Shown here one piece after another: positions 8,170-22,288 of a stretch of DNA of 22,983 nt (its first letter is position 1; every line of letters starts with the position of its first letter). The stretch is from Pseudomonadota bacterium. Lineage in GTDB: Bacteria; Pseudomonadota; Alphaproteobacteria; Acetobacterales; Acetobacteraceae. A program made the position numbers and the translations under genes. The notes below the pieces were generated by a model. The model made no database searches and was not told the DNA's origin. It was given only the letters and a program-made list of their open reading frames with translations. The stretch is from positions 1 to 22,983 of the forward strand of contig JAJZVE010000006.1 in assembly GCA_021845835.1 (NCBI GenBank), read 5' to 3'.

Positions 8170-9258
8170 ATGAGCGTCTATCCCTCGGAACTGCTGTTCT
8201 ACGGTTGCGCGGACATGCCCGAGGCCGATGGCGCAACCGTCGGCGGCGCGGTGGACTTCGCCAAGAAGGTCACCTTCTACGACCTGACCGCGACCGGCGC
8301 GCTCGACTATTTCTCGTCGAGCGCGTCCGACACCGCGACCAAGATCACGCTGTCCGGCCGCGACGGGACCGGCGTGATCCAGAACGAGACGGTGACGCTG
8401 AACGGCACCACCCAGGTCGCCGGCAGCATCTCCTTCCAGCGCATCCTCTACGCCGCATCGTCCGGTGCCGGCGCCGGCGGCCCGCTCGCCAACCCCGGCG
8501 GCACCACGGCAACCGGCGACCTGTGCGCGATGTCCTCGACCCGCACCGTCAGCGGCCACACCGCACGCGCCGGCAGCGCCGACCACACCGGCACCACGCC
8601 GCCGCTGTTCTACCTGCAGGCCGGCGACGGCGCGTCCTGCCAGATCGGCATGGTGCTGCGCATCACAGGCGGCACCGGCGCCAACCAGATCCGCAGCATC
8701 GTCGCGACCTCGGGCTACGGCACCGATGTCGTGGGGGTCAGCCGCGACTGGAGCACCATCCCGGACGCGACTTCCACCTACGACGTGGCGCCAGGCATCG
8801 TGTTCGACCTCGCGCCGAGCCAGATCACCCAGGTGATCCGCACCTTCGCCACCGTCTCGTCCGATATCGTCGGCGGCAGCACGCGGACCTACTACGAGAA
8901 GGTGTTCGCGGTGAACACCGACACGGCGACCGCGCTCACCGTCGCGTCGATCCTGAAGCAGACCGACCCGGCTGGCCTCTATACCGGCGGCGGGGCGCTG
9001 GACTTCGCGCTGACCTCCGCGCTGAACGATACCGGCACCGTCACCAACCGGCAGACCGCGCCCGCCTCCGGCATCACTGCGTTCTCCACCGGCGCGGCGC
9101 CGCAGACGATCGCCGTGCCCGGTCCGCAGAACCTGCCCTCGGGCGCCGTGCCGAACGCGGCGGGCGCGCAAGGCAGTTGGTGGCGCCTGACGCTGCCCGC
9201 CGGCCTCGCGCCCGGCGACAGCAGTTTCACCCAGCGCGTCACCGGGCAGACCACCTGA
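8170..9258 (+). CDS. Virion-like structural protein, 362 aa
   Basis: This protein has no signal peptide and starts MSVYPSELLFYGCADMPEAD after a strong AGGAG ribosome binding site. It is beta-rich with regular Thr/Ser-Gly turns (DGTGVIQNETVTLNGTTQV, GGTGANQIRSIVATSGYGTD, YEKVFAVNTDTATALTVASI), in the style of phage tail surface and decoration proteins. The phrase KVTFYDLTATGALDYFSSSA and later ASCQIGMVLRITGGTGANQI suggest repeated immunoglobulin-like or carbohydrate-binding folds. It heads a run of four virion-like genes (8170-11507) with small gaps. I do not recognise the exact family; it may be a tail or neck surface protein. Confidence 0.5.
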   Translation: MSVYPSELLFYGCADMPEADGATVGGAVDFAKKVTFYDLTATGALDYFSSSASDTATKITLSGRDGTGVIQNETVTLNGTTQVAGSISFQRILYAASSGAGAGGPLANPGGTTATGDLCAMSSTRTVSGHTARAGSADHTGTTPPLFYLQAGDGASCQIGMVLRITGGTGANQIRSIVATSGYGTDVVGVSRDWSTIPDATSTYDVAPGIVFDLAPSQITQVIRTFATVSSDIVGGSTRTYYEKVFAVNTDTATALTVASILKQTDPAGLYTGGGALDFALTSALNDTGTVTNRQTAPASGITAFSTGAAPQTIAVPGPQNLPSGAVPNAAGAQGSWWRLTLPAGLAPGDSSFTQRVTGQTT

Positions 9259-11508: not shown

Positions 11509-11898
11509 ATGAGCGCCACCCTGCCGCCCGGAACCCGCACGATGACCGACCAGAGCACGATGAGCACCCTGGAGTGGATTCTGACGGCCGCCGTCGCCGC
11601 CATCATCGCGGCGTTCGGACACGCGCACGTCCGCATCAACCGTGTCGAGGACGACGCGAAGAAGGATATCGACGAGGTGAGGAAGGCGGTCAGCGACGTG
11701 CAGACCCGCGCCAGCGAGGACACGCTGCGCGGCGACAAGGCGCTGCACGACCTGCTCGACGAGCGCGAGCGCGCTGACCGCGCGTTCCGCGAGCGCGTCC
11801 TGCGCGAGATGGTGACGAAGGACGACTGGCGGCAGTTTTCCACCGAGATCCGCCAGTTCATCCGCGACCTGTCCGGCCGCACGCCGCCCGCGGCATAA
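11509..11898 (+). CDS. Membrane-anchored coiled-coil protein
   Basis: This 129-residue protein has one N-terminal membrane helix (MSTLEWILTAAVAAIIAAFG) followed by a long charged coiled coil (RVEDDAKKDIDEVRKAVSDV, ERERADRAFRERVLREM, DDWRQFSTEIRQFIRDL). Possible starts are ATG 11509, 11542 (MTDQSTM) and 11560 (MSTLEW); the first is one base after the previous stop. The topology, a short cytoplasmic end, one helix, then a periplasmic coil, fits an inner-membrane spanin (Rz-like) or another phage membrane accessory. It sits directly upstream of the muramidase gene. The family is not certain. Confidence 0.5.
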   Translation: MSATLPPGTRTMTDQSTMSTLEWILTAAVAAIIAAFGHAHVRINRVEDDAKKDIDEVRKAVSDVQTRASEDTLRGDKALHDLLDERERADRAFRERVLREMVTKDDWRQFSTEIRQFIRDLSGRTPPAA

Positions 11899-15300: not shown

Positions 15301-15757
15301 AATAGGCAGCCGCAGCGGTCGCGATGACGGCCGCTCGGCTGGCCGCAGCGTTGGCCTGCTCTTGGAGTCGGCGCGACCTATCGGCCGCCTTCGCCTCCTC
15401 GATCTCTTTGCGCAGTTCATCCAGCACGTCGAGCATGATCTGCTGCCACGGACCGTCCACGCTCCAGTCGCCGGTGCTGTAAAAGCGGATCGCTTGCCCG
15501 TTCACGGGGTGCGGGTAGGGATCACCATACGTGGCTGGATCGTGGGACCACGGCTTGAACTCCACCGGGCGCGCGGTGAACGCTTCGGCAAAGCAATAGT
15601 CATTGGTGTTCCACTCATTGCACAGAAGAATGTCGCGACGGAGCACGAAGCAGGGATGCTTGCGGAATGCACTCCCGGTCATCGTGCCTTTGAGTTTCCA
15701 GTGCCGCGCCGCTGCGATGAGTTCGCAGAACTCGCTTGCGGTCGGTGCTCCCAACAT
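15296..15757 (-). CDS. Hypothetical protein, 153 aa
   Basis: This protein starts at ATG 15757, six bases after the GGAGG ribosome binding site; a GTG at 15769 would add four residues but places the ribosome binding site inside the gene. The N-terminus is MLGAPTASEFCELIAAARHW. The middle holds several aromatic, Cys-containing segments (HPCFVLRRDILLCNEWNTND, YPHPVNGQAIRFYSTGDWS). The C-terminus is a charged helix (VLDELRKEIEEAKAADRSRR) ending in an Ala-rich stretch. No known domain is recognised. It belongs to the minus-strand small-gene operon. Confidence 0.5.
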   Translation of the reverse strand: MLGAPTASEFCELIAAARHWKLKGTMTGSAFRKHPCFVLRRDILLCNEWNTNDYCFAEAFTARPVEFKPWSHDPATYGDPYPHPVNGQAIRFYSTGDWSVDGPWQQIMLDVLDELRKEIEEAKAADRSRRLQEQANAAASRAAVIATAAAAYS

Positions 15758-15766
15758 TGTTTCCTC

Positions 15767-15781
15767 CACGGGGGTTTAGGA
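15767..15781 (-). repeat. AAACCCCC intercistronic element, copy B
   Basis: On the minus strand, TCCTAAACCCCCGTG contains the TAA stop of the 15776 gene and runs directly into the GTG/GGAGG start region of the 15296 gene. The shared core is AAACCCCCG. Confidence 0.55.
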
Positions 15782-15994
15782 GACGCGCGCTGCGGCGCGG
15801 TGTTCGTAGATCAGATTTGCATCGGCCAGCGACTTCGGCCGCTCGCCCTTCGATCCGTTCGGAGTCCCGCGATAGGCGATGGCACATTCCGCGTGCTGGG
15901 TGCGCCAGCCGCCGGCGTGCCGCTCAAAATGGCCGGCGTTGGGTTCGACGCGCTCGCCGCAACGGTAGCAGATGCCCGGATAACGATTTCGCAT
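15776..15994 (-). CDS. Zinc-knuckle small protein
   Basis: This 72-residue protein, starting at ATG 15994, has a GGAGG ribosome binding site. It begins MRNRYPGICYRCGERVEPNA and continues GHFERHAGGWRTQHAECAI. The C-x-x-C pair plus His and Cys residues (CYRC, HFERH, QHAEC) form a probable zinc-binding knuckle. Small proteins of this type occur widely in phages as DNA-binding or regulatory factors. A frame-open extension to ATG 16159 exists but lacks a ribosome binding site and has no protein-like character, so I reject it as the start. The stop TAA lies in the next AAACCCC element. The DNA target is unknown. Confidence 0.6.
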   Translation of the reverse strand: MRNRYPGICYRCGERVEPNAGHFERHAGGWRTQHAECAIAYRGTPNGSKGERPKSLADANLIYEHRAAARVS

Positions 15995-16166
15995 CTGTGG
16001 TCCTCCGGTGATGGGGGTTTGAGTAGCGGGGCCGACCCCCTGATTTCCCGTCCCGCTGCGCTCACACGGGATGCCCTGTCGGATTTTCCAGGCGCGCCGT
16101 TCCACGGGACTTTCCGGGGCCGATCTGCCCGGCGTTTTCCGCTGAGAGGGCGGGAACATGGGGTTT
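15995..16166. other. Non-coding gap between minus-strand genes
   Basis: These 172 bp separate the 16167 membrane peptide from the zinc-knuckle gene. The gap contains AAACCCC element copy C at 16013-16023 and a weaker one at 16160-16169. On the plus strand, [TC]TTTCC recurs at about 16084, 16110 and 16135, an imperfect 25-26 bp spacing. The gap is long for this compact operon, so it may hold an RNA or protein-binding element. I see no stable stem with a T-run and no promoter I would defend. Confidence 0.35.
16013..16023 (-). repeat. AAACCCCC intercistronic element, copy C
   Basis: On the minus strand this reads CTCAAACCCCC, upstream of the GGAGG ribosome binding site of the zinc-knuckle gene (ATG 15994). 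Confidence 0.5.
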
Positions 16167-16298
16167 TTAACTAAAGCTAATCGAAACGTGGTGGAACAGC
16201 CACGGGAGTAGCAGCGTCGCCGTCACTCCGCACGCCACGCCCGCGGCAAACGCCACGGCCATCAACCCGGAAATGTAGGCTGCGAGTGCTTCGCCCAT
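16167..16298 (-). CDS. 43-residue membrane peptide
   Basis: The product is MGEALAAYISGLMAVAFAAG then VACGVTATLLLPWLFHHVSI-SFS. It is a single long hydrophobic helix (residues about 5-35) with a His/Phe end. The ATG at 16298 has a GGAGG ribosome binding site five bases upstream, and AAACCCC element copy D lies just before it. It is the second gene of the minus-strand operon. A small phage membrane peptide is likely; the role (antiholin, exclusion or stress peptide) is open. Confidence 0.55.
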   Translation of the reverse strand: MGEALAAYISGLMAVAFAAGVACGVTATLLLPWLFHHVSISFS

Positions 16299-16314
16299 GC
16301 GGGCCTCCGTCATT

Positions 16315-16334
16315 CCGGGGTTTGAAGCGTCAGG
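16315..16334 (-). repeat. AAACCCCC intercistronic element, copy D
   Basis: On the minus strand it reads CCTGACGCTTCAAACCCCGG. It contains the TGA stop of the 16330 gene and precedes the start of the 43-residue peptide. It matches copy A apart from a 2-nt difference in spacing. Confidence 0.6.
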
Positions 16335-16575
16335 CCGCACGCGACCAGGAGCCGTCCGCAGCCCGGATCATCCGGGCCGAGACGCCACCGTGCTGCCGGA
16401 CCTTGCGTGACCGCAACGCCGAAATTTCGGCGTCGCCGCGCGTGCCGTTCTCGGCCAGCCAGGCGTCCCGGTCAGCGCGGGTGTAGAACTGGAAAACTGC
16501 GCGCTCGTCGAAATTTCGGCGCTCGCCCGTGGCGCCGTCGATCGCGGCGGGGAAGACGGCAAGGACGTAGAACAT
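16330..16575 (-). CDS. Hypothetical protein, first gene of the minus operon
   Basis: This 81-residue protein starts MFYVLAVFPAAIDGATGERR and continues NFDERAVFQFYTRADRDAWL. It looks like a small alpha/beta protein, with TRADRDAWLAENGTRGDAE as a conserved-looking helix; such short proteins are common in phage early operons. It has no membrane or zinc motif. It starts about 45 bases downstream of the inferred TTGACA/TAGGTT promoter at 16623-16651, fitting a lead gene. The family is not recognised. Confidence 0.55.
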   Translation of the reverse strand: MFYVLAVFPAAIDGATGERRNFDERAVFQFYTRADRDAWLAENGTRGDAEISALRSRKVRQHGGVSARMIRAADGSWSRAA

Positions 16576-16692: not shown

Positions 16693-17343
16693 ATGGCACG
16701 ATCCAGACCAGTGAGAGCGGCATCTACGCCGCCTGAGCAGCCCGAAGCGCCCGAAAAGCCGCACTTGTTGGGCTATGCGCGGGTGTCGATGGCGGACCAA
16801 GACCCTCGTCTTCAGATCGACGCGCTGCTGCGGGCCGGCGTGGATGAGGCCGAAATATGGGTCGAGCAGGCCAGCGGCGCCAGCACCAAGCGCCCGCAGT
16901 TCCAACGGGTGCTGAAGGCCGCGCAACCGGGCGACGTGCTGGTGGTGTGGAAACTGGACAGGCTGGGCCGGAACGCCCGCGAGGTGCTGAACACCTTTCA
17001 CACGCTATCCGAGCGCGGCGTGGCGATCCGGGTCATCACGCAGCCCGGCATGGACACCAGCACGGCGATGGGCCGCCTCATCATCACAGTGATGGCGGCT
17101 GTGGCCGAGATGGAACGCGACCTGATCCGCGAGCGGACGCTGGCCGGTCTGAAGGCCGCGCGGGATCGCGGCGTGACTGGCGGCCGGCAGCCGATCGCCA
17201 GCAAGGAACAGCTTGAGGTCGCGCGGCGCCGCATTCTGAACGGAGAGCGCGTCGGCGAGGTCGCGAAGTCGCTCGGCTATAAGTCTCGCACCACGCTCTA
17301 CAAGGCGTTCGACAGGTTCAACATTCCGAGGATTACCGAATGA
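16693..17343 (+). CDS. Small serine recombinase (resolvase/invertase type)
   Basis: This 216-residue protein belongs to the resolvase/invertase group. The catalytic serine is in GYARVSMADQDP (Ser32). The core has WKLDRLGRNAREVLN, then GVAIRVITQPGMDTSTAMGR and the E-helix MAAVAEMERDLIRERTLAGL. The C-terminal 40 residues (RILNGERVGEVAKSLGYKSR) are a helix-turn-helix for site binding. An N-terminal Pro-rich extension of about 24 residues precedes the domain. These enzymes cut and rejoin DNA at paired sites, to resolve cointegrates or invert segments. It is much too short for a large serine integrase. It heads the plus-strand small-gene operon, and its stop overlaps the next gene (ATGA). Confidence 0.9.
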   Translation: MARSRPVRAASTPPEQPEAPEKPHLLGYARVSMADQDPRLQIDALLRAGVDEAEIWVEQASGASTKRPQFQRVLKAAQPGDVLVVWKLDRLGRNAREVLNTFHTLSERGVAIRVITQPGMDTSTAMGRLIITVMAAVAEMERDLIRERTLAGLKAARDRGVTGGRQPIASKEQLEVARRRILNGERVGEVAKSLGYKSRTTLYKAFDRFNIPRITE

Positions 17344-17693
17344 GCAACCAGACAAAGACGACCACCTACTACGGCGCTGGACGCGCCGCCCATGCTGACG
17401 GCACGCTGTACTCGGATTGCCCTGTCGGGTTTGGCGAGAATGGCGATGCGCAGCACAGGCGCGAATGGCAGCAAGGTTGGCGCGACGCGGAACAAGAGGC
17501 ACGGCATCAAACCACCATCTACCAGTTTCCGTCAAAGACAGAATGGGACGCCGTAGATGCGGCGATGGGTGAGCACATGTCGCCGACGGGTTGTTTGCGG
17601 TTCTATTCACCGCTGCCCGGCGTCGTGCAACATTCTCTCGAACGCGAATGGCGCGGCTCACTCGGCACGATCTGGGGGCGAGTCCCGACATGA
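17340..17693 (+). CDS. RMF/CrpP-like small protein
   Basis: This 117-residue protein has a first half close to the ribosome modulation factor/CrpP type: GAGRAAHADGTLYSDCPVGF, then RREWQQGWRDAEQEARH. The key features G-R, C-P and R-x-W-x-x-G-W are all present (Cys27, Trp43, Trp47). RMF binds stalled ribosomes in stationary phase, and CrpP-like relatives are often encoded on mobile elements. The second half (residues 58-117) is unassigned. The N-terminus MSNQTKTTTY is a loose version of the leader shared by the following genes. It overlaps the recombinase stop (ATGA) and the next start (ATGA). The domain call is by eye; the role in this phage is not known. Confidence 0.55.
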   Translation: MSNQTKTTTYYGAGRAAHADGTLYSDCPVGFGENGDAQHRREWQQGWRDAEQEARHQTTIYQFPSKTEWDAVDAAMGEHMSPTGCLRFYSPLPGVVQHSLEREWRGSLGTIWGRVPT

Positions 17694-18001
17694 CCGACGC
17701 CCCGAGCCATTCCGATACCACCGCCGCGCGCGAGCGCGCCATTTGCCGAGGGTGCGGCAAGCCACTCGATGGCGATGCCTATATGTATGGAGGCCGCGCC
17801 TACGTGCCGCACGGCCCGCAGGACGATCATCGCCGACCGCGCCGCGAAGCGAAAGCTTGTCATTATGGCGGCTTTGTGTGCTCGGAAGCGTGCGACCGCC
17901 GCGCGCACCTTGATCTGGAGCAGACGATGCCAGGACACGGCGGACAGACCCGGTTGTCGGCGCATCATAGCGAGATGATCAGCAGGAAGTGGGCAGCATG
18001 A
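17690..18001 (+). CDS. Zinc-finger-like protein with MTD leader
   Basis: This 103-residue protein starts MTDAPSHSDTTAARER (leader variant), followed by ICRGCGKPLDGDAYMYGG and CHYGGFVCSEACDRRAHLDL with the end QTMPGHGG. The cysteines (C-x-x-C, then C-x5-C-x3-C) would bind zinc; similar cysteine-rich small proteins occur in prophages. It overlaps both neighbours by ATGA. The role, perhaps DNA or RNA binding, is not established. Confidence 0.55.
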   Translation: MTDAPSHSDTTAARERAICRGCGKPLDGDAYMYGGRAYVPHGPQDDHRRPRREAKACHYGGFVCSEACDRRAHLDLEQTMPGHGGQTRLSAHHSEMISRKWAA

Positions 18002-18243
18002 CCGACAGCCCCGACCAGTCTCCAATGACCCACTGCGGTTGCGAACGCAGTCACAACGGACTCGGTATTGCTGGCCGGGAATGCGACTGCCAAGACATTC
18101 CCGATATCACCGCCCCGATGGACGCGCCGCTGACGCACTACGAGACCGGCCTGGTGGCGGCGACGATCGGCGCTCGCCCAGACACCGCCAGCCTCGATGA
18201 TAACGAGGCGCGCGAATACATGGAGGGATACCATGCAGCCTGA
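17998..18243 (+). CDS. Leader-bearing cysteine-rich small protein
   Basis: This 81-residue protein starts MTDSPDQSPMTHCGCERSHN, then GLGIAGRECDCQDIPDITAP. C-x-C and C-D-C pairs suggest metal binding. The C-terminal half (THYETGLVAATIGARP, DDNEAREYMEGYHAA) is helical and polar. The ATG at 17998 overlaps the upstream TGA (ATGA) and has an AGGAAG ribosome binding site; an upstream ATG at 17989 lacks this. The family is not recognised. Confidence 0.5.
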   Translation: MTDSPDQSPMTHCGCERSHNGLGIAGRECDCQDIPDITAPMDAPLTHYETGLVAATIGARPDTASLDDNEAREYMEGYHAA

Positions 18244-18412
18244 CCGAGAGCAGACCACCGAGACTGACTGCCAGGAGCAGCAGGACGAATGCCCGAACTG
18301 CGGCGGCGAGGGAATGGTGTGGGGCTGTTTCGAAGACACCTGCGTCTGCATAGACGATGACGGCCTCGGCTGCGTGCCGCGGCGCTGCGACTGGTGCAAA
18401 GGAAAGGGTTGA
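18233..18412 (+). CDS. DnaJ-type zinc-ribbon small protein
   Basis: This 59-residue protein starts MQPDREQTTETDCQEQQDEC. The zinc motif is CPNCGGEG near residue 20 and CDWCKGKG at the end, giving two C-x-x-C-x-G-x-G units as in the DnaJ cysteine-rich domain, with CVCIDDDGLGCVPRRC between them. In DnaJ such units hold zinc and bind unfolded protein; here only one pair is present, without a J domain. Its start lies inside the previous gene (11-nt overlap) after GGAGGG. The leader (MQPDREQTTE) is a loose copy of the MTD type. Confidence 0.6.
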   Translation: MQPDREQTTETDCQEQQDECPNCGGEGMVWGCFEDTCVCIDDDGLGCVPRRCDWCKGKG

Positions 18413-18415
18413 CCG

Positions 18416-18661
18416 ATGCCGAACGAAACCACCGCGCCGACTGACCACGACGGCCGAGGCATCGACCGCCGCGTATGGCTGATGGCCCGCGCGATGGCGC
18501 GCGTGCTCTACCCGCAGATCACGGACGAGGAACTGGATCGGCCAGCAAAGCGGTGGAACGGCACCGCGCTGGCCGATGCCAACTGCTCGGTGTGGCAGGA
18601 CCATGTGCCGGAAGCGGAGGCGGCGCTCGCTGCGCTCAAGTCGGAGGGATTTGTGCAGTGA
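18416..18661 (+). CDS. Small helical protein
   Basis: This 81-residue protein starts MPNETTAPTDHDGRGIDRRV, with Thr-rich leader remnants. The body is helical and rich in charged residues (MARAMARVLYPQITDEELDR, QDHVPEAEAALAALKSEGFV). It starts three bases after the previous stop, and its stop overlaps the next GTG (GTGA). It has no metal-binding motif, unlike several neighbours. A DNA- or protein-binding helper is possible, but no family is recognised. Confidence 0.5.
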   Translation: MPNETTAPTDHDGRGIDRRVWLMARAMARVLYPQITDEELDRPAKRWNGTALADANCSVWQDHVPEAEAALAALKSEGFVQ

Positions 18662-18858
18662 CCGACAGCCTCAGCCACACCCCAACCACCAAGCCGGCCG
18701 CCATGCCGCCATGCGTGTGGTGCGGCGCGTCGCGGGCTGACCAGATCGGGGTCAGCTACTACGACGCGCAGGGAGAGCCTTTGTGCTTGCCCTGCTGGGA
18801 GCGCGAATACGGTGAAGATTACCGCAAGCAATATCAGCCAGCGGAGACAACGTCATGA
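18658..18858 (+). CDS. CxxC small protein with GTG start and MTD leader
   Basis: GTG at 18658 overlaps the previous stop (GTGA). The 66-residue product begins MTDSLSHTPTTKPAAMPPCV with C-V-W-C-G after the leader, and ends LCLPCWEREYGEDYRKQYQP. Two C-x-x-C units form a probable zinc knuckle. GTG with a GGAGG site 13 bases upstream gives a real but weaker start. It overlaps the MazG-like gene (ATGA). Confidence 0.5.
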   Translation: MTDSLSHTPTTKPAAMPPCVWCGASRADQIGVSYYDAQGEPLCLPCWEREYGEDYRKQYQPAETTS

Positions 18859-19175
18859 CCGACAGTCTCGACCAGACTCCAACCACCGCACATTTCAATG
18901 GCCTGACGCCCGGAGAGGCCGAGCGATTGGCGCTGTTAATGGAGGAGTGCGCGGAGGTGCAGCAGGTCATCGGCAAAATCCTGCGCCACGGCTATTCGCG
19001 CTGTCACCCGAACGGCGGCCCGGACAACAGGGCGCTTCTGGAGCGCGAGTTGGGCGACCTCGATGCTGCTCGCGCTCTGCTCATCAAGGCGCACGACATT
19101 ACAGAGCATTCAATCGACCTGCATGCCCGCGTGAAACTCGGCCGCGTCGGGGAGTATCTTCACCATGCAGAATGA
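18855..19175 (+). CDS. MazG-like nucleotide pyrophosphohydrolase
   Basis: This 106-residue protein carries leader MTDSLDQTPTTAHFNG, followed by a MazG-type helical domain: ERLALLMEECAEVQQVIGKI (E30-E31-x-x-E34), a LRHGYSRCHPNGGPDNR loop and ERELGDLDAARAL (E65-x-x-D68). The E-E-x-x-E...E-x-x-D pattern holds Mg2+ and the nucleotide. Such phage enzymes cleave NTPs or dNTPs, or the alarmone ppGpp, to a monophosphate. It is a single-domain, short form. It overlaps its neighbours (ATGA upstream; the next gene begins 11 nt inside its end). The call is strong at family level; the substrate is open. Confidence 0.75.
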   Translation: MTDSLDQTPTTAHFNGLTPGEAERLALLMEECAEVQQVIGKILRHGYSRCHPNGGPDNRALLERELGDLDAARALLIKAHDITEHSIDLHARVKLGRVGEYLHHAE

Positions 19176-19347
19176 CCGCCCCGATACCACCACCGCCGAG
19201 CGGCAGGCGGAAGCGTTCGCCGTTGCCGCCGGCCAGGAACGCGCCGCGCTGTTGCGCGAGAACGAGCGGCTGCGCGCCCTTGTGCGGCATTACGCGGCTC
19301 AGTGCGGTGTGGATGATAGCGAACTTCAGAGGGTGCATCGTGTATGA
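19165..19347 (+). CDS. Small coiled-coil protein
   Basis: This 60-residue protein starts MQNDRPDTTTAERQAEAFAV (loose leader). The rest is one long charged helix (QERAALLRENERLRALVRHY) typical of a coiled coil, ending GVDDSELQRVHRV. It starts inside the MazG-like gene (11-nt overlap) and overlaps the next start (ATGA). A dimerisation or regulatory adaptor is plausible; no family is known to me. Confidence 0.5.
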   Translation: MQNDRPDTTTAERQAEAFAVAAGQERAALLRENERLRALVRHYAAQCGVDDSELQRVHRV

Positions 19348-19574
19348 CCGACAGTTCCGACCAACAGAAGACGACCGCAGGCCAGAAGATCGTGGACGGC
19401 CTCACCGAAGCACTCCGGGCCGTCGCGTTGGTGCGCGCTGTCCGCGCGCTGGACGGCTTCGAGATGACCGAGCAAGAGGCGGTCAATGTGCTGGCGCAGG
19501 TCGATGCCGTTGACCCGCTGCGGCAACCGCATCCGTTTCTCGACAACCGCAAGAGGTTTTCGACACATGAGTGA
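19344..19574 (+). CDS. Small helical protein with MTD leader
   Basis: This 76-residue protein has the leader MTDSSDQQKTTAGQKIVDGL, a helical body (ALRAVALVRAVRALDGFEMT, EQEAVNVLAQVDAVDPLRQ) and the ending PHPFLDNRKRFSTHE. It has an ATGA overlap with the previous stop, and the next gene begins within its last codons. There is no membrane or metal motif. The function is unknown. Confidence 0.5.
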   Translation: MTDSSDQQKTTAGQKIVDGLTEALRAVALVRAVRALDGFEMTEQEAVNVLAQVDAVDPLRQPHPFLDNRKRFSTHE

Positions 19575-19815
19575 CCGCGATCAAAATGCGCGACGCATTC
19601 TTGCGATGCGTCCTGGCGGAGCCGCAGGCATGACCGACGCCCCCGACCAGCCCCCAACCACCCGCGGTTGGTCGATCGACATCAGCGGCGGCACCGTAAT
19701 GCTTTTCCAAGACGGGCGCCGCGTCGGTTCCTATCCGCTCAAGTTCTCGCGCCGGGGGCGCATTTGCCTACGCCATGAGGGCGAGTGGCTGATCTTCGAG
19801 CGGAGGAAGCCATGA
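19567..19815 (+). CDS. Small beta-strand protein with internal MTD leader
   Basis: The 82-residue reading begins MSDRDQNARRILAMRPGGAA-G and then MTDAPDQPPTTRGWSIDISG. Two starts are possible: ATG 19567 (8-nt overlap with the previous stop) or ATG 19630, which is where the shared leader begins and gives a 61-residue protein. The second part (GTVMLFQDGRRVGSYPLKFS, RRGRICLRHEGEWLIFERRK) is a small all-beta domain, as in plug- or SH3-like folds. The double leader may show two original genes fused. It overlaps the next gene by ATGA. Confidence 0.5.
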   Translation: MSDRDQNARRILAMRPGGAAGMTDAPDQPPTTRGWSIDISGGTVMLFQDGRRVGSYPLKFSRRGRICLRHEGEWLIFERRKP

Positions 19816-19913
19816 GCCAGACTCCAACCACCGACGCGCCCCCTTGGTGGAGCACGCGACGCGGACAAGCGCAGCACGTCAGTCCACGTCCTGGGAAGCC
19901 GCCTTTTCAGTGA
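19812..19913 (+). CDS. Leader gene interrupted by the TnpB element
   Basis: This open reading of 33 codons starts MSQTPTTDAPPWWSTRRGQA and ends QHVSPRPGKPPFQ. It overlaps the previous gene by ATGA, after GGAGG. The last base pairs and the stop TGA (19911-19913) already belong to the end of the IS200/IS605-type element, so the gene probably once continued and was cut by the insertion. Its leader is the last of the series upstream of the element; another copy begins at 21382, on the other side. Confidence 0.45.
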   Translation: MSQTPTTDAPPWWSTRRGQAQHVSPRPGKPPFQ

Positions 19914-20110
19914 ACACTCCGCCAGCTAAAGCAGGCGGCTTCTCGGACAAGCTATGCGGCAACCCGCTGGCTTGGCATCCGACCGGGCGTTCCACCCGGA
20001 GAAGTCGCCCGCTGCAACACGATCCGCGACGCCGCCACGTCCCGATCAAGGTCGCATCCGCAGTCGCAGATGTGCCGCCGCTGGGAGAGGGGCTTGCGTG
20101 TCACCGTGCC
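19910..20110 (-). ncRNA. Likely omega RNA region at the tnpB 3' end
   Basis: TnpB proteins use an RNA transcribed from the 3' part of tnpB through the right end, with the guide taken from flanking DNA just outside the element. Here that would cover the last tnpB codons, the hairpin at 19919-19938 and, as guide, minus-strand sequence from 19909 downward (beginning TGAAAAGGCGGC). The limits are approximate and inferred from the family, not from a recognised RNA motif. Confidence 0.35.
19919..19938. repeat. Right-end hairpin of the TnpB element
   Basis: CCGCCAGCTAAAGCAGGCGG pairs as CCGCC/GGCGG and GC/GC around a TAAA loop, with one A-A mismatch in the stem. It lies close to the tnpB stop at 19952, where the transposase and TnpB RNA machinery would recognise the end. 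Confidence 0.6.
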
Positions 20111-21070
20111 GCAGTCGGGGCAGGTTTGGGATGTGCCGTTCGGATCGACCAGAACTACGGCAGCGCCGGCGCCTTCCGCCTTGTACTGCGTGAAACTGAC
20201 GATTTGGGACCAAGCGGCGTCGTGGACCGACCGAGCGAGCATCCCGCGCTTGAGGCCGGAAAGGTTCAGGTTCTCGAATGCGATCAGGCTGTAACGGTCC
20301 GCCAAGTACCGAGACAGTTTGTGCGCGAAGTCGCGGCGCTGGTTGGCGACGCGGGCCGATGCGGCGGCAATGCGTGCCTTGGCCTTGCGTCGCCGGTTGC
20401 TGCCGCGCCGGCACCGGGCAAGCGCCCGCTGTGCCCGACGCAACGCCTTCTGAGCCTTGCGGGCGAAGCGAGGAGCCGGGATCGTCTGCCCGTCGCTGGT
20501 GGCGATCAGGTTGTTCAGTCCGAGGTCGATTCCCACAACCGGGCCGGTGCGCACCGGTCCGGTGGCATCGAACTCGACTTGGAAGCAGATGAACCACTTG
20601 CCGGCCTTGCGGCTGATGACCGCGTGGCCGAGTTTGGCGCATCCCGGCATTTCCCTGTGCCACACCACCTTGATCTGACCTGGGATGCCGACAACGCCGA
20701 TCCGGCCGGTCTTGCGGATCGTCAGGCCGTCGCCCGCCCGCATGTCGGCGCTGTCGAAGCGGGCGCGCGAGCGGAAGCGCGGGAAGCCGTGGCCGCGACG
20801 AAAGAAGGCGACATAGGTCTTTTCCAGGCGGCGAAGCACCTGTTGCAGCGTGGTGAAGCTCCACCGCGCCAGCGCCGGTTCGGCCTCGCGCACCGCCTTC
20901 AACTCGGACGCCTGATTGCTGTAGCGCAGGCTGATGCCACGGCGTCGGTAGGCGTCGATGCGCTGTTCCAAGCAGGCGTTGTAGAGCGCGCAGCAATCCC
21001 AGAGCATCACGTCCAAAGCCTCCGCCTGCGCCCGGTTCGGCCGCAGCCTGAACTTGAACGTCCGGATCAT
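19952..21070 (-). CDS. tnpB: TnpB RNA-guided nuclease
   Basis: This 372-residue protein starts MIRTFKFRLRPNRAQAEALD, the usual TnpB N-terminus. The RuvC residues are present: D182 in VVGIDLGLNNLIA, E266 in LIAFENLNLSGL, and D344 in CDLDRDVAASRIV. The zinc ribbon has CPDCG (C317, C320) and a compact CDCGC (335-339). A basic linker (KALRRAQRALARCRRGSNRR) follows the first motif. With its RNA, TnpB cuts DNA next to a short motif and helps retain its element at the donor site. The start ATG 21070 overlaps the RHH stop (ATGA), so the open frame farther upstream is not used. All catalytic residues are intact, so it may be active. Confidence 0.9.
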   Translation of the reverse strand: MIRTFKFRLRPNRAQAEALDVMLWDCCALYNACLEQRIDAYRRRGISLRYSNQASELKAVREAEPALARWSFTTLQQVLRRLEKTYVAFFRRGHGFPRFRSRARFDSADMRAGDGLTIRKTGRIGVVGIPGQIKVVWHREMPGCAKLGHAVISRKAGKWFICFQVEFDATGPVRTGPVVGIDLGLNNLIATSDGQTIPAPRFARKAQKALRRAQRALARCRRGSNRRRKAKARIAAASARVANQRRDFAHKLSRYLADRYSLIAFENLNLSGLKRGMLARSVHDAAWSQIVSFTQYKAEGAGAAVVLVDPNGTSQTCPDCGTVTRKPLSQRRHICDCGCDLDRDVAASRIVLQRATSPGGTPGRMPSQRVAA

Positions 21071-21204
21071 TTGCTCAGGCGCCATTCGTCGATGATACGG
21101 CGGATCAGGTCCGAGACGCTGATGCCGAGGCGCTTTGCCTCCGCTTCCAGCACCTTGCGCTGGGGATTGGTGAGCGTCACCGACTGCCGGGAAGTGTCTG
21201 CCAT
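21067..21204 (-). CDS. Ribbon-helix-helix protein coupled to tnpB
   Basis: This 45-residue protein starts MADTSRQSVTLTNPQRKVLE and continues AEAKRLGISVSDLIRRIIDE, ending WRLSK. The pattern (strand SVTLT, then two helices with GISVSDLIRRIIDEW) is the CopG/Arc ribbon-helix-helix fold, a small DNA-binding dimer. The ATGA overlap with tnpB shows coupled translation. A likely role is autoregulation of the tnpB promoter by binding the upstream GC-rich region, limiting nuclease expression. The fold call is by eye but fits well. Confidence 0.7.
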   Translation of the reverse strand: MADTSRQSVTLTNPQRKVLEAEAKRLGISVSDLIRRIIDEWRLSK

Positions 21205-21276
21205 GCGAACCACTATCGGACCACATGCGGTGCGGTGTCAACCGCCGTGTGCGCCCTGCGGGCGCCCGGCATTCCT

Positions 21277-21296
21277 CCGCCGGCTAAAGCCGGCGG
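21277..21296. repeat. Left-end hairpin of the TnpB element
   Basis: CCGCCGGCTAAAGCCGGCGG is a perfect 8-bp stem with a TAAA loop. It lies about 75 bp upstream of the RHH start. With 19919-19938 it makes a direct repeat with two substitutions, marking the two ends of the element. Confidence 0.65.
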
Positions 21297-21315
21297 TCCC
21301 CAACCGGAGGCTTTG

Positions 21316-21432
21316 ATGGCGCTTCCCATCGCTGCGCGAGGTGCTGTCGTGGCGGCGGTCACATCGCGCATGGAGACGAGGATGAGCCAACCTCAAACGA
21401 CCGATTACCCGTCCGCGCCAGCCTCCGTCTGA
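21316..21432 (+). CDS. Small reading frame beyond the TnpB element
   Basis: This is a 38-codon reading from ATG 21316 (GGAGG ribosome binding site): MALPIAARGAVVAAVTSRME, then TRMSQPQTTDYPSAPASV. A second ATG at 21382 begins MSQPQTTDYPS, another copy of the shared leader and close to MSQTPTTD at 19812. Removing the element joins the 19812 gene to this frame at one of the three possible junctions. The 3' end overlaps the convergent minus-strand gene by 28 nt. It may be the displaced rest of that gene, or a truncated leader gene. Confidence 0.35.
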   Translation: MALPIAARGAVVAAVTSRMETRMSQPQTTDYPSAPASV

Positions 21433-21815
21433 CCGATTAGCGCCCTCGTCTGACGCCGTTTGACGGGCGGCATTCCTCGCGCCGCTCGCATCCGGTCCCG
21501 GATCAGCGCCGCCGCATGCCGGCGCACGTCGCGCGGGATGCCTTCCGTCTGCAGACGTGCCAGCGCCTCGGCGGCCAGCGCGATCTCCGCCGTCTCCATC
21601 GGTATGACGGCCTGTCTGGCGCCGTCTGACGGCCGCTCGTCTGGCGGGATCACCCGCTCGCCGCTCTCCATGTCGGACAGCAGTTTGACGGCCCGTGTGA
21701 CCCATTCAGCCACGGTCTGCCCTTGTCGCCGGGCGCACTCCACGGCGGTTTCGCTGGTAGAGACCGGACAGTCGCGGATCGACCACGGCTTCCTGTTTGA
21801 CGGCTCGTCGGACAT
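21405..21815 (-). CDS. Regulator-like protein with RHH/ParD-style sequence
   Basis: This 136-residue protein starts MSDEPSNRKPWSIRDCPVST after a GGGGGG site. The segment WSIRDCPVSTSETAVECARR then QGQTVAEWVTRAVKLLSDM has strand-helix-helix texture like RHH proteins of mobile elements that carry W-S-I-R-D-V-P-type starts. The C-terminal half is helical and basic (EIALAAEALARLQTEGIPRD, RRHAAALIRDRMRAARGMP). Nine-base GT[CT]TGACG[GC] repeats lie within the gene and just upstream of it. A DNA-binding regulator or partition-type protein is likely. Its stop overlaps the plus-strand reading at 21316 tail to tail. Confidence 0.45.
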   Translation of the reverse strand: MSDEPSNRKPWSIRDCPVSTSETAVECARRQGQTVAEWVTRAVKLLSDMESGERVIPPDERPSDGARQAVIPMETAEIALAAEALARLQTEGIPRDVRRHAAALIRDRMRAARGMPPVKRRQTRALIGQTEAGADG

Positions 21816-21877
21816 GCTCGCCCCCCTTTGGAGACGTGTGTCTGACGAAAATCAGCCGGAGTCAAACGGCGTCAGAC
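21448..21877. repeat. Cluster of GT[CT]TGACG[GC] repeats and an 18-bp inverted repeat
   Basis: Exact or near copies on the plus strand start at 21448, 21458, 21602, 21614 (one mismatch), 21624, 21639 (one mismatch), 21683, 21795 and 21840; an inverted copy ends near 21877. CGTCTGACGCCGTTTGAC at 21447-21464 recurs as an exact reverse complement at 21861-21878. GCCGTCTGACGGC at 21621-21633 is itself a dyad. The cluster overlaps the 21405 gene and its upstream region. Confidence 0.5.
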
Positions 21878-22288
21878 GCGCCGCCTCACCGCCCACGCCG
21901 CCGCGAATCGCGCCTCCCGTGCCTGGCGCACCGCCGCCAGCGATGGCGCGGCCGGAGGGTGTGACAACTCGGCACAGCATTGGATTCTGATAGATTCTGC
22001 TCTTGGAGCGGCGCCGAAACTGTAGGCATTCGCGATCCGCACCGCCCATCCCCGCCCGCACACGACGCGCGGCTGCCACGACAGCAGTCCGAGCGCGCTC
22101 AGCCGGGCCAGAGCGCGCAGCACCGTCCGGCGCGAGCAGCCGGCGGCGCGGGCCAAGCCGCGATGGGTCGGCGTGGCACTGCGCCAGTGCAGCAGCTTGG
22201 CGAGGATGTGGACGTGCAGCCGGGTGGGGCGCTGGCCGGGCGGCAGCGTGCGCGCGAGGCGGTCGGCGGTGGCGAGGGTGGGGTGCAT
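21872..22288 (-). CDS. Winged-helix DNA-binding protein
   Basis: This 138-residue protein starts MHPTLATADRLARTLPPGQR after an AGGAG site. Residues about 24-75 form a winged helix: LHVHILAKLLHWRSATPTHR, then GLARAAGCSRRTVLRALARL and GLLSWQPRV with a wing (CGRGWAVRIANAYSF). The rest is basic and less ordered. Such proteins act as repressors or replication accessories in phages and plasmids. The stop lies at the end of the 18-bp inverted repeat (21861-21878). It is close to the repeat cluster, which may be its DNA target; that link is an inference. Confidence 0.6.
   Translation of the reverse strand: MHPTLATADRLARTLPPGQRPTRLHVHILAKLLHWRSATPTHRGLARAAGCSRRTVLRALARLSALGLLSWQPRVVCGRGWAVRIANAYSFGAAPRAESIRIQCCAELSHPPAAPSLAAVRQAREARFAAAWAVRRRV

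Follow-up and report, generated by a model that had tools for sequence, protein, structure and literature searches.

Why would a row of small phage genes with unlike products open, one after another, with variants of the same short leader? The question is raised by a 22,983-nucleotide (nt) stretch of an Acetobacteraceae assembly (contig JAJZVE010000006.1), called here, as a whole, the window. It is a GC-rich, phage-like contig that carries baseplate (phrog_975) and endolysin (phrog_315) genes, along with a nearly gapless plus-strand run of small genes that extends from a recombinase gene at 16693 up to 19815. A sequence-only reading of this array had named a series of starts with a common N-terminal leader and proposed a duplicated start module, acting either as a translation-initiation cassette or as a shared protein tag. 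All of the named starts are present, at those positions and with those peptides. We find that the shared thing is the DNA at the stop/start junction, and we think it reasonably probable that the leaders are descended copies of one ~33-nt stop/start linker along which genes have been added or shuffled, and which provides a coupled translation start.

Six genes (starting at 17690, 17998, 18658, 18855, 19344 and 19630) carry a common block that runs from the start codon to codon 11, and two short remnants farther downstream carry shortened forms of it:

17690–17722, plus strand: leader copy MTDAPSHSDTT, overlapping the upstream stop TGACCG (repeat finding, block alignment)
17998–18030, plus strand: leader copy MTDSPDQSPMT (consensus scan, repeat finding, block alignment)
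18658–18690, plus strand: leader copy VTDSLSHTPTT, with a GTG start (consensus scan, repeat finding, block alignment)
18855–18887, plus strand: leader copy MTDSLDQTPTT, with 0 mismatches to the consensus used (consensus scan, block alignment)
19344–19376, plus strand: leader copy MTDSSDQQKTT (repeat family D3, block alignment)
19630–19662, plus strand: leader copy MTDAPDQPPTT (consensus scan, repeat finding, block alignment)
19812–19832, plus strand: shortened leader copy MSQTPTT, in which CCAGACTCCAACCACC is the same as in the 18855 copy (repeat families D4 and D12)
21382–21402, plus strand: shortened leader copy MSQPQTT, opening a 16-codon remnant that likewise stops at TGACCG (21430; repeat family D4)

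The six full leaders align without gaps over 33 nt, with a mean nucleotide identity of ~0.70 inside the block; individual pairs are identical at 19 to 28 of the 33 nt, and 7 of the 15 pairs at 24 or more. Position by position, identity is elevated between +0 and +32 and lies near background outside (30 nt upstream, 0.280; codons 13–22, 0.300), the exceptions over the printed range being +56 and −12, the latter a G in the Shine-Dalgarno region. A consensus allowed up to three mismatches matched four places in the window, all of them leader starts (17998, 18658, 18855 and 19630), against a mean of 0.00 matches in 100 dinucleotide shuffles. Repeat finding recovered the same leader families and added the pairs 19812/21382 and 18233/19165. 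When 12 leaders were lined up on the body, their 3' ends were also more alike than shuffled ones (identity 0.640 versus 0.386; 0 of 5000 shuffles), in a test that is partly circular because TT had been chosen by eye as the point where a leader stops.

Might such likeness reflect convergence only, with GC-rich genes that open with ATGACC drifting towards an unstructured start rich in T, P, D and Q? The word TGACCG is indeed common in the window (30 plus-strand copies against ~10 expected from dinucleotides, and 25 on the minus strand), and an MTD start occurs elsewhere in it, at 11542. Over codons 2–11, however, mean identity was 0.696 versus 0.405 for codon-shuffled leaders, and over codons 4–11, with the common MTD left out, 0.619 versus 0.374; none of 5000 shuffles reached the observed value in either case, and the objection that the earlier reading had raised against itself, a bias from start codons and low complexity, therefore fails. 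Two further observations speak against convergence: the 19812 leader reads like the 18855 leader after an internal loss of ~12 nt, with 16 nt identical between the copies, and 11 other plus-strand starts of the window, pooled, are not A/C-rich (A/C/G/T 16/36/28/19; A+C 52%). On the strength of the leader-versus-shuffle comparison we put pure convergence low, as very improbable.

The array junctions have a second common feature. At 9 of the 11 the upstream TGA is followed by CCG, as is the remnant stop at 21430. Away from the array, CCG follows 1 of 22 gene stops of the window selected by eye, two further rows having been dropped as not being stops (1 of 14 if TGA stops only are counted). Across 82 GC-rich loci, with a mechanical set of open reading frames (ORFs) that probably includes some false ones, CCG follows 13 of the 232 stops that read ATGA and 15 of the 772 remaining TGA stops. 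Because TGACCG is so common in the window, the evidence at the junctions lies in its position at stops and not in its count. The claim that most starts overlap the previous stop by ATGA or GTGA held, with a 4-nt overlap, for 7 of the 11, including that of the 17340 gene, which overlaps the recombinase stop (17343) via ATGA; the overlap is 11, 11 and 8 nt at three others, and the remaining one begins 3 nt beyond the stop, so that 10 of the 11 junctions overlap (one of them becomes 55 nt if 19630 and not 19567 is the start). The four loose starts keep TGACCG although the start codon lies elsewhere:

18233–18259, plus strand: variant junction ATGCAGCCTGACCG...CAGACCACC (MQPDREQTT), with its start 8 nt before the first letter of the upstream TGA (repeat family D10)
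18410–18433, plus strand: variant junction TGACCGATGCCGAACGAAACCACC (MPNETT), with its start (18416) 6 nt after the first letter of the TGA, 3 nt past the stop (junction table)
19165–19191, plus strand: variant junction ATGCAGAATGACCG...GATACCACC (MQNDRPDTT), with its start 8 nt before the first letter of the upstream TGA (repeat family D10)
19567–19629, plus strand: short in-frame opening across the previous stop (TGACCG at 19572), with its start 5 nt before the TGA; codon-position GC not gene-like

With the start codon displaced, the early peptide at these junctions runs in another frame or begins later, and TGACCG is kept. The leader at 19630 is possibly internal, since an in-frame ORF opens at 19567; codon-position GC, which here covers 21 codons, perhaps favours 19630 as the true start.

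Behind these junctions lie the following genes:

16693–17343, plus strand: serine recombinase of DNA-invertase type, which opens the run (Pfam Resolvase E 9e-44; phrog_125 DNA invertase E 6e-63)
17340–17693, plus strand: 117-aa gene with a marginal RMF-like match (Pfam, NCBIfam) and a weak leader, MSNQTKTT
17690–18001, plus strand: 103-aa gene of a cysteine-containing family (14 other homologues among the matches listed)
17998–18243, plus strand: 81-aa gene, no assigned function (ORF; Pfam, PHROGs)
18233–18412, plus strand: 59-aa cysteine-rich gene, no family match (Pfam, PHROGs, NCBIfam)
18416–18661, plus strand: 81-aa gene, no assigned function (ORF)
18658–18858, plus strand: 66-aa gene with CxxC pairs (protein search matched itself only)
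18855–19175, plus strand: 106-aa MazG-like nucleotide pyrophosphohydrolase (phrog_4856 E 2e-15)
19165–19347, plus strand: 60-aa gene, coiled-coil-like by eye (ORF)
19344–19574, plus strand: 76-aa gene, no assigned function (ORF; Pfam, PHROGs)
19630–19815, plus strand: 61-aa gene, no assigned function (ORF; NCBIfam)

Most of the array ORFs have gene-like codon-position GC, highest at position 3 and lowest at position 2; the exceptions are 19165 (position 1 highest), the 33-codon ORF at 19812 and the segment 19567–19629. The domain labels that the earlier reading had given to the bodies fared unequally. The MazG-like label on 18855 was borne out by its PHROGs match (Pfam MazG reached only E 0.018, below its cut-off), the RMF-like label on 17340 is marginal (Pfam E 0.019 and NCBIfam E 0.026, both below cut-off), and the ‘DnaJ-type’ label on 18233 found no family match in Pfam, PHROGs or NCBIfam.

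The leader-bearing bodies have no detectable relation to one another: the best body-to-body match had E 0.80 (19165/19344), in a comparison in which the 19567 body still included the 19630 leader, and the 17690 and 18855 genes belong to distinct families, each with its own homologues. Both facts count against a tandem duplication of whole genes in which the bodies then diverged fast and the leader is the last recognisable part, as does the fall of identity to background within one base at both edges of the block. Such a history would suit genes that are small and adjacent, it would also leave repeats at the junctions, and the 18233/19165 pair shares ACCATGCAG just upstream of TGACCG as well (repeat family D10). 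On balance we regard it as quite unlikely.

Would selection on the peptide account for the likeness instead, with M(T/S)D..DQ.PTT kept as a tag for binding one phage or host partner, or for common routing? Eleven of the 12 leaders end in T-T (M-T in 17998), in the frame of the body, a count that is partly a matter of choice given how the leaders were delimited. For two of the genes, the closest homologues also have N-terminal stretches that end in TT. Among the matches listed, the closest homologue of the MazG-like protein (P0002; 79% identical) starts MADDQTT and has the DDQTT stretch twice, at its start and, as ADDQTT, before the MazG body, there following a cysteine-rich module; another homologue (P0105) likewise has a cysteine-rich stretch before MazG. 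The closest listed homologue of the 17690 protein (P0123; 71% identical) starts MASDGNKTT, and three others of that family (P0124, P0126 and P0127) have, in place of the window leader, a different shared N-terminal stretch ending PSNDNR.

Other observations fit a tag poorly. The comparison of synonymous with non-synonymous differences that had been suggested for the leaders gave pN 0.29 and pS 0.35 for the six full copies (a ratio of ~0.8, from ~7 synonymous sites per pair and 15 non-independent pairs), so that peptide changes are nearly as frequent as silent ones and the tag reading is weakened. Leader length varies from 6 to 11 residues, and in the loose forms the early frame and start codon differ with TGACCG constant. 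A leader is also missing from most MazG-like homologues among the matches listed: in 92 of the 119 listed (of 486) at most 8 residues precede the body motif, against ~14 in the window protein, and one of the 27 with longer N-termini is a pattern artefact. We consider a tag unlikely; of the two options first offered for the module, an initiation cassette or linker fits better and a shared protein tag worse. Finally, the window leaders resemble each other more than they do the leader of the nearest ortholog, though the bodies are 71–79% alike, in a comparison of two short metagenomic contigs, of 605 bp (P0002) and 865 bp (P0123), with predicted starts that was judged by eye; this suggests copying or homogenisation of leaders within a genome.

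We therefore return to the linker. The duplicated start module is supported by the relatedness of the DNA and by the abruptness of its two borders, one at the start codon and the other behind codon 11, and common descent is the natural reading of these two features. We infer that recombination at linkers built the array and that the linker has been kept because it serves to start translation. In each protein the leader is probably translated along with the body; the peptide itself seems to matter little. As we picture it, the first letters of the linker (RTGA) would close the upstream gene and open the downstream one, the A/C-rich, weakly folding remainder would make a ready start for translation, coupled to the end of translation in the preceding gene, and any body could follow codon 11. 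Each array gene would then consist of linker and body, joined head to tail, and recombination between linkers could for that reason add, lose or swap genes with their frames intact.

The composition of the leaders is in keeping with such a role: 31% A, 47% C, 16% G and 6% T, or 78% A+C versus 51% in the bodies (A/C/G/T 19/32/34/16). With its own leader, the region around the start is predicted to fold more weakly than when body segments take that position (mean z +1.63 across 10 genes, with 19165 and 19630 near zero). Twelve of 13 starts, all but 17690, have an exact match of 4–5 nt to the Shine-Dalgarno string in front of them, at spacings that vary, and since the 30 nt upstream have no sequence in common, the ribosome-binding site is supplied by the body of the preceding gene and not by the linker.

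Several points weigh against the linker interpretation. Our searches found no relative with the same linker before other bodies, or lacking one gene of the array. Copies that are alike at 19 to 28 of 33 nt, with insertions and deletions in the loose forms, would offer poor homology for recombination today. Eleven of the 12 leaders keep a T-T ending in the body's frame, MTD-type starts occur in a few homologues (P0044 and P0048) without the rest of the leader, and the Shine-Dalgarno sequence lies outside the shared block. Measured against synonymous recoding, folding is only a little weaker (mean z +0.73, with −0.06 for 18855 and −1.39 for 19165). Two leader patterns had 0 matches in viral contigs, a third matched 44 viral-contig stretches once each, and genome contigs gave 8 scattered stretches, again with a single match in each. 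In a loose scan of 96 sequences, lastly, a repetitive locus (L085, 18 pairs) ranked above the window (10 pairs).

If genes moved along the array, the upstream serine recombinase (16693–17343) might have moved them as cassettes, with the leaders as its recognition sites; an enzyme of DNA-invertase type is the first gene of the run, and the repeats do lie at gene borders. Crossover sites of this recombinase class are near-palindromic. The dyad symmetry of the leaders, by contrast, is not clearly above that of shuffles in five of the six (195, 96, 39, 7, 143 and 108 of 200 shuffles reached the observed value, the 7 being that of 18855), and the copies vary in length and sequence. Phage invertases, moreover, usually act on tail-fibre genes. 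We put this explanation low, as highly improbable, for want of clear dyad symmetry.

The search of other genomes for the leader, which the sequence-only reading had called for, turned up no linker with other bodies and only scattered single matches to its patterns, in searches that covered named collections and in several cases depended on exact pattern matches. The MADDQTT form occurred once in each of 15 stretches. A profile built from the six leaders, run over 174 sequences (2.17 Mb; not a random sample), gave E < 0.01 for its own six leaders only, the next being L124 at 0.084, and a 36-nt leader query in phage records found only matches near E 5, in 10 records. DNA similarity to the region was confined to the recombinase and the MazG-like gene in 6 phage records, and to the recombinase in the best 20 of 507 plasmid records. 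tblastn in phage records found no relative of 17340 or 18416 at E 0.01, and 385 genomes of the class of G001 gave a single match to the 17690 family, a weak one interrupted by stops. Rfam had no match in the window, nor did PADLOC for 10 proteins.

Start modules of the same kind may be more widespread than this particular leader. A stricter scan of the 174 sequences gave one cluster of four starts, which is the one in the window; on 14 further sequence strands it gave single pairs. A scan for start-anchored 24-mers with unrelated flanks gave 9 pairs in 5 sequences (three in viral contig L157, three in the window, and one each in L087, L007 and L023), against 1, 3, 1, 1, 0, 0, 0 and 0 pairs at eight in-gene control offsets; the stricter scans thus rank the window first or level with L157. 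The latter contig carries a relative of the 17690 gene and, at 15700–16470, three genes in a row that have GAGGTGAACCATGACGCACTTTGAC; the last of them, judged by eye, is integrase-like. There the module comprises an identical Shine-Dalgarno sequence, start and leader (MTHFDRD/MTHFDK) plus the end of the upstream gene, and two ORFs that end in it close with EVNHDAL over the same bases. Its 24-nt form occurs in three copies in L157 and in none of the other viral contigs searched. As L157 has a start module of its own at three consecutive genes, the pattern may recur; both modules seem, from these comparisons, to be private to their genome yet multi-copy. The L007 pair is formed by genes at 8896 and 9469, which have different bodies and a common start, MNARQKAKK(Y/L)KK, within the surrounding 24-mer; MNARQKAKK was not found in phage records or literature.

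It is possible, and we hold it tentatively, that short private coding linkers at stop/start junctions are a general device of phages for growing operons, a class as yet without a name of which the window and L157 would be two separate cases. Every new body would be placed after its own linker copy, which closes the gene before it and starts the new one at a set level; the linker would stay a safe site for later gene exchange, and the linkers would evolve in concert within each genome. This bears on how phages string unrelated tiny genes into tight operons with expression preserved. A coding linker copied from gene to gene would, if true, be a concrete mechanism and could explain odd shared N-termini in small phage proteins; it would also caution that a shared N-terminus need not imply shared function.

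Downstream of the array, the remnants at 19812 and 21382 flank a TnpB-type element (19917–21296) with hairpin-like ends of 22 nt that are 91% identical; its best plasmid relative among the matches listed, from Methylorubrum extorquens AM1, is 65% identical. An 18-nt perfect inverted repeat (21447–21464/21861–21878) and three more GTxTGACGG-type repeats (21602, 21683 and 21795) lie in and around a minus-strand gene (21405–21815), which adjoins a gene (21872–22288) with weak matches to replication-initiation families. The repeats of 21430–21880 could be operator or replication sites.

How does the array compare with systems already described? In the literature on repeated starts, boundary repeats, shared N-termini, translational coupling and CA repeats, only mycobacteriophage and Microbacterium phage cases came close among the matches listed, so that the statement that no named system is like this one was fair for the literature searched, with the qualification that two of these cases are close in kind. 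The first is that of the Start Associated Sequences (SAS) and Extended SAS (ESAS) of Cluster K mycobacteriophages and Cluster EF Microbacterium phages (PMC3203893, PMC7302621). As far as the available text of these papers goes, a SAS is a short sequence at many gene starts of one phage genome, in different gene families and largely private to the phage group, with a proposed role in translation initiation. The window shares the occurrence at starts of different gene families, with a common block before bodies that have no detectable relation. According to the same text, a SAS is 13 bp long and sits before the start, where the ribosome binds, and in Cluster K it is mostly found after gaps of > 50 bp; the window repeat, in contrast, is a coding sequence that opens with the start codon, overlaps the upstream stop and omits the Shine-Dalgarno sequence, and its junctions overlap in 10 of 11 cases, the other being 3 nt apart. 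The SAS consensus GGGATAGGAGCCC had 0 matches in the window with up to two mismatches. The ESAS is described there as a pair of 17-bp imperfect inverted repeats just upstream, and none of the best 25 of 84 inverted repeat pairs (the longest) in the window was tied to starts.

Two further bodies of work touch single features of the array. Overlapping stop and start codons are those of translational coupling by termination-reinitiation (PMC6728339), with which the array agrees at the 7 of 11 starts that overlap by 4 nt; that work, in the text available, concerns the overlap itself and not a repeated downstream leader. An A/C-rich, weakly structured stretch right after the start recalls the CA-rich downstream sequences reported to stimulate expression in E. 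coli (PMC4611024), where the available text does not describe a repeat common to the genes of one operon.

The clearest precedent for the proposed history is gene 14 of Corndog (PMC4351075). As the accessible part of that report has it, a 17-bp direct repeat at a gene junction in Cluster O flanks this gene and is single in relatives without it, which was explained by recombinational gain or loss of the gene. The window likewise has a direct repeat at both gene borders, at stop/start junctions. The Corndog case involves one gene and two copies and the window about a dozen copies in one operon, and by this analogy the array would repeat that process some ten times, with a linker that is coding. 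We accordingly file the window array as a variant of repeated junction sequences, and not as a SAS.

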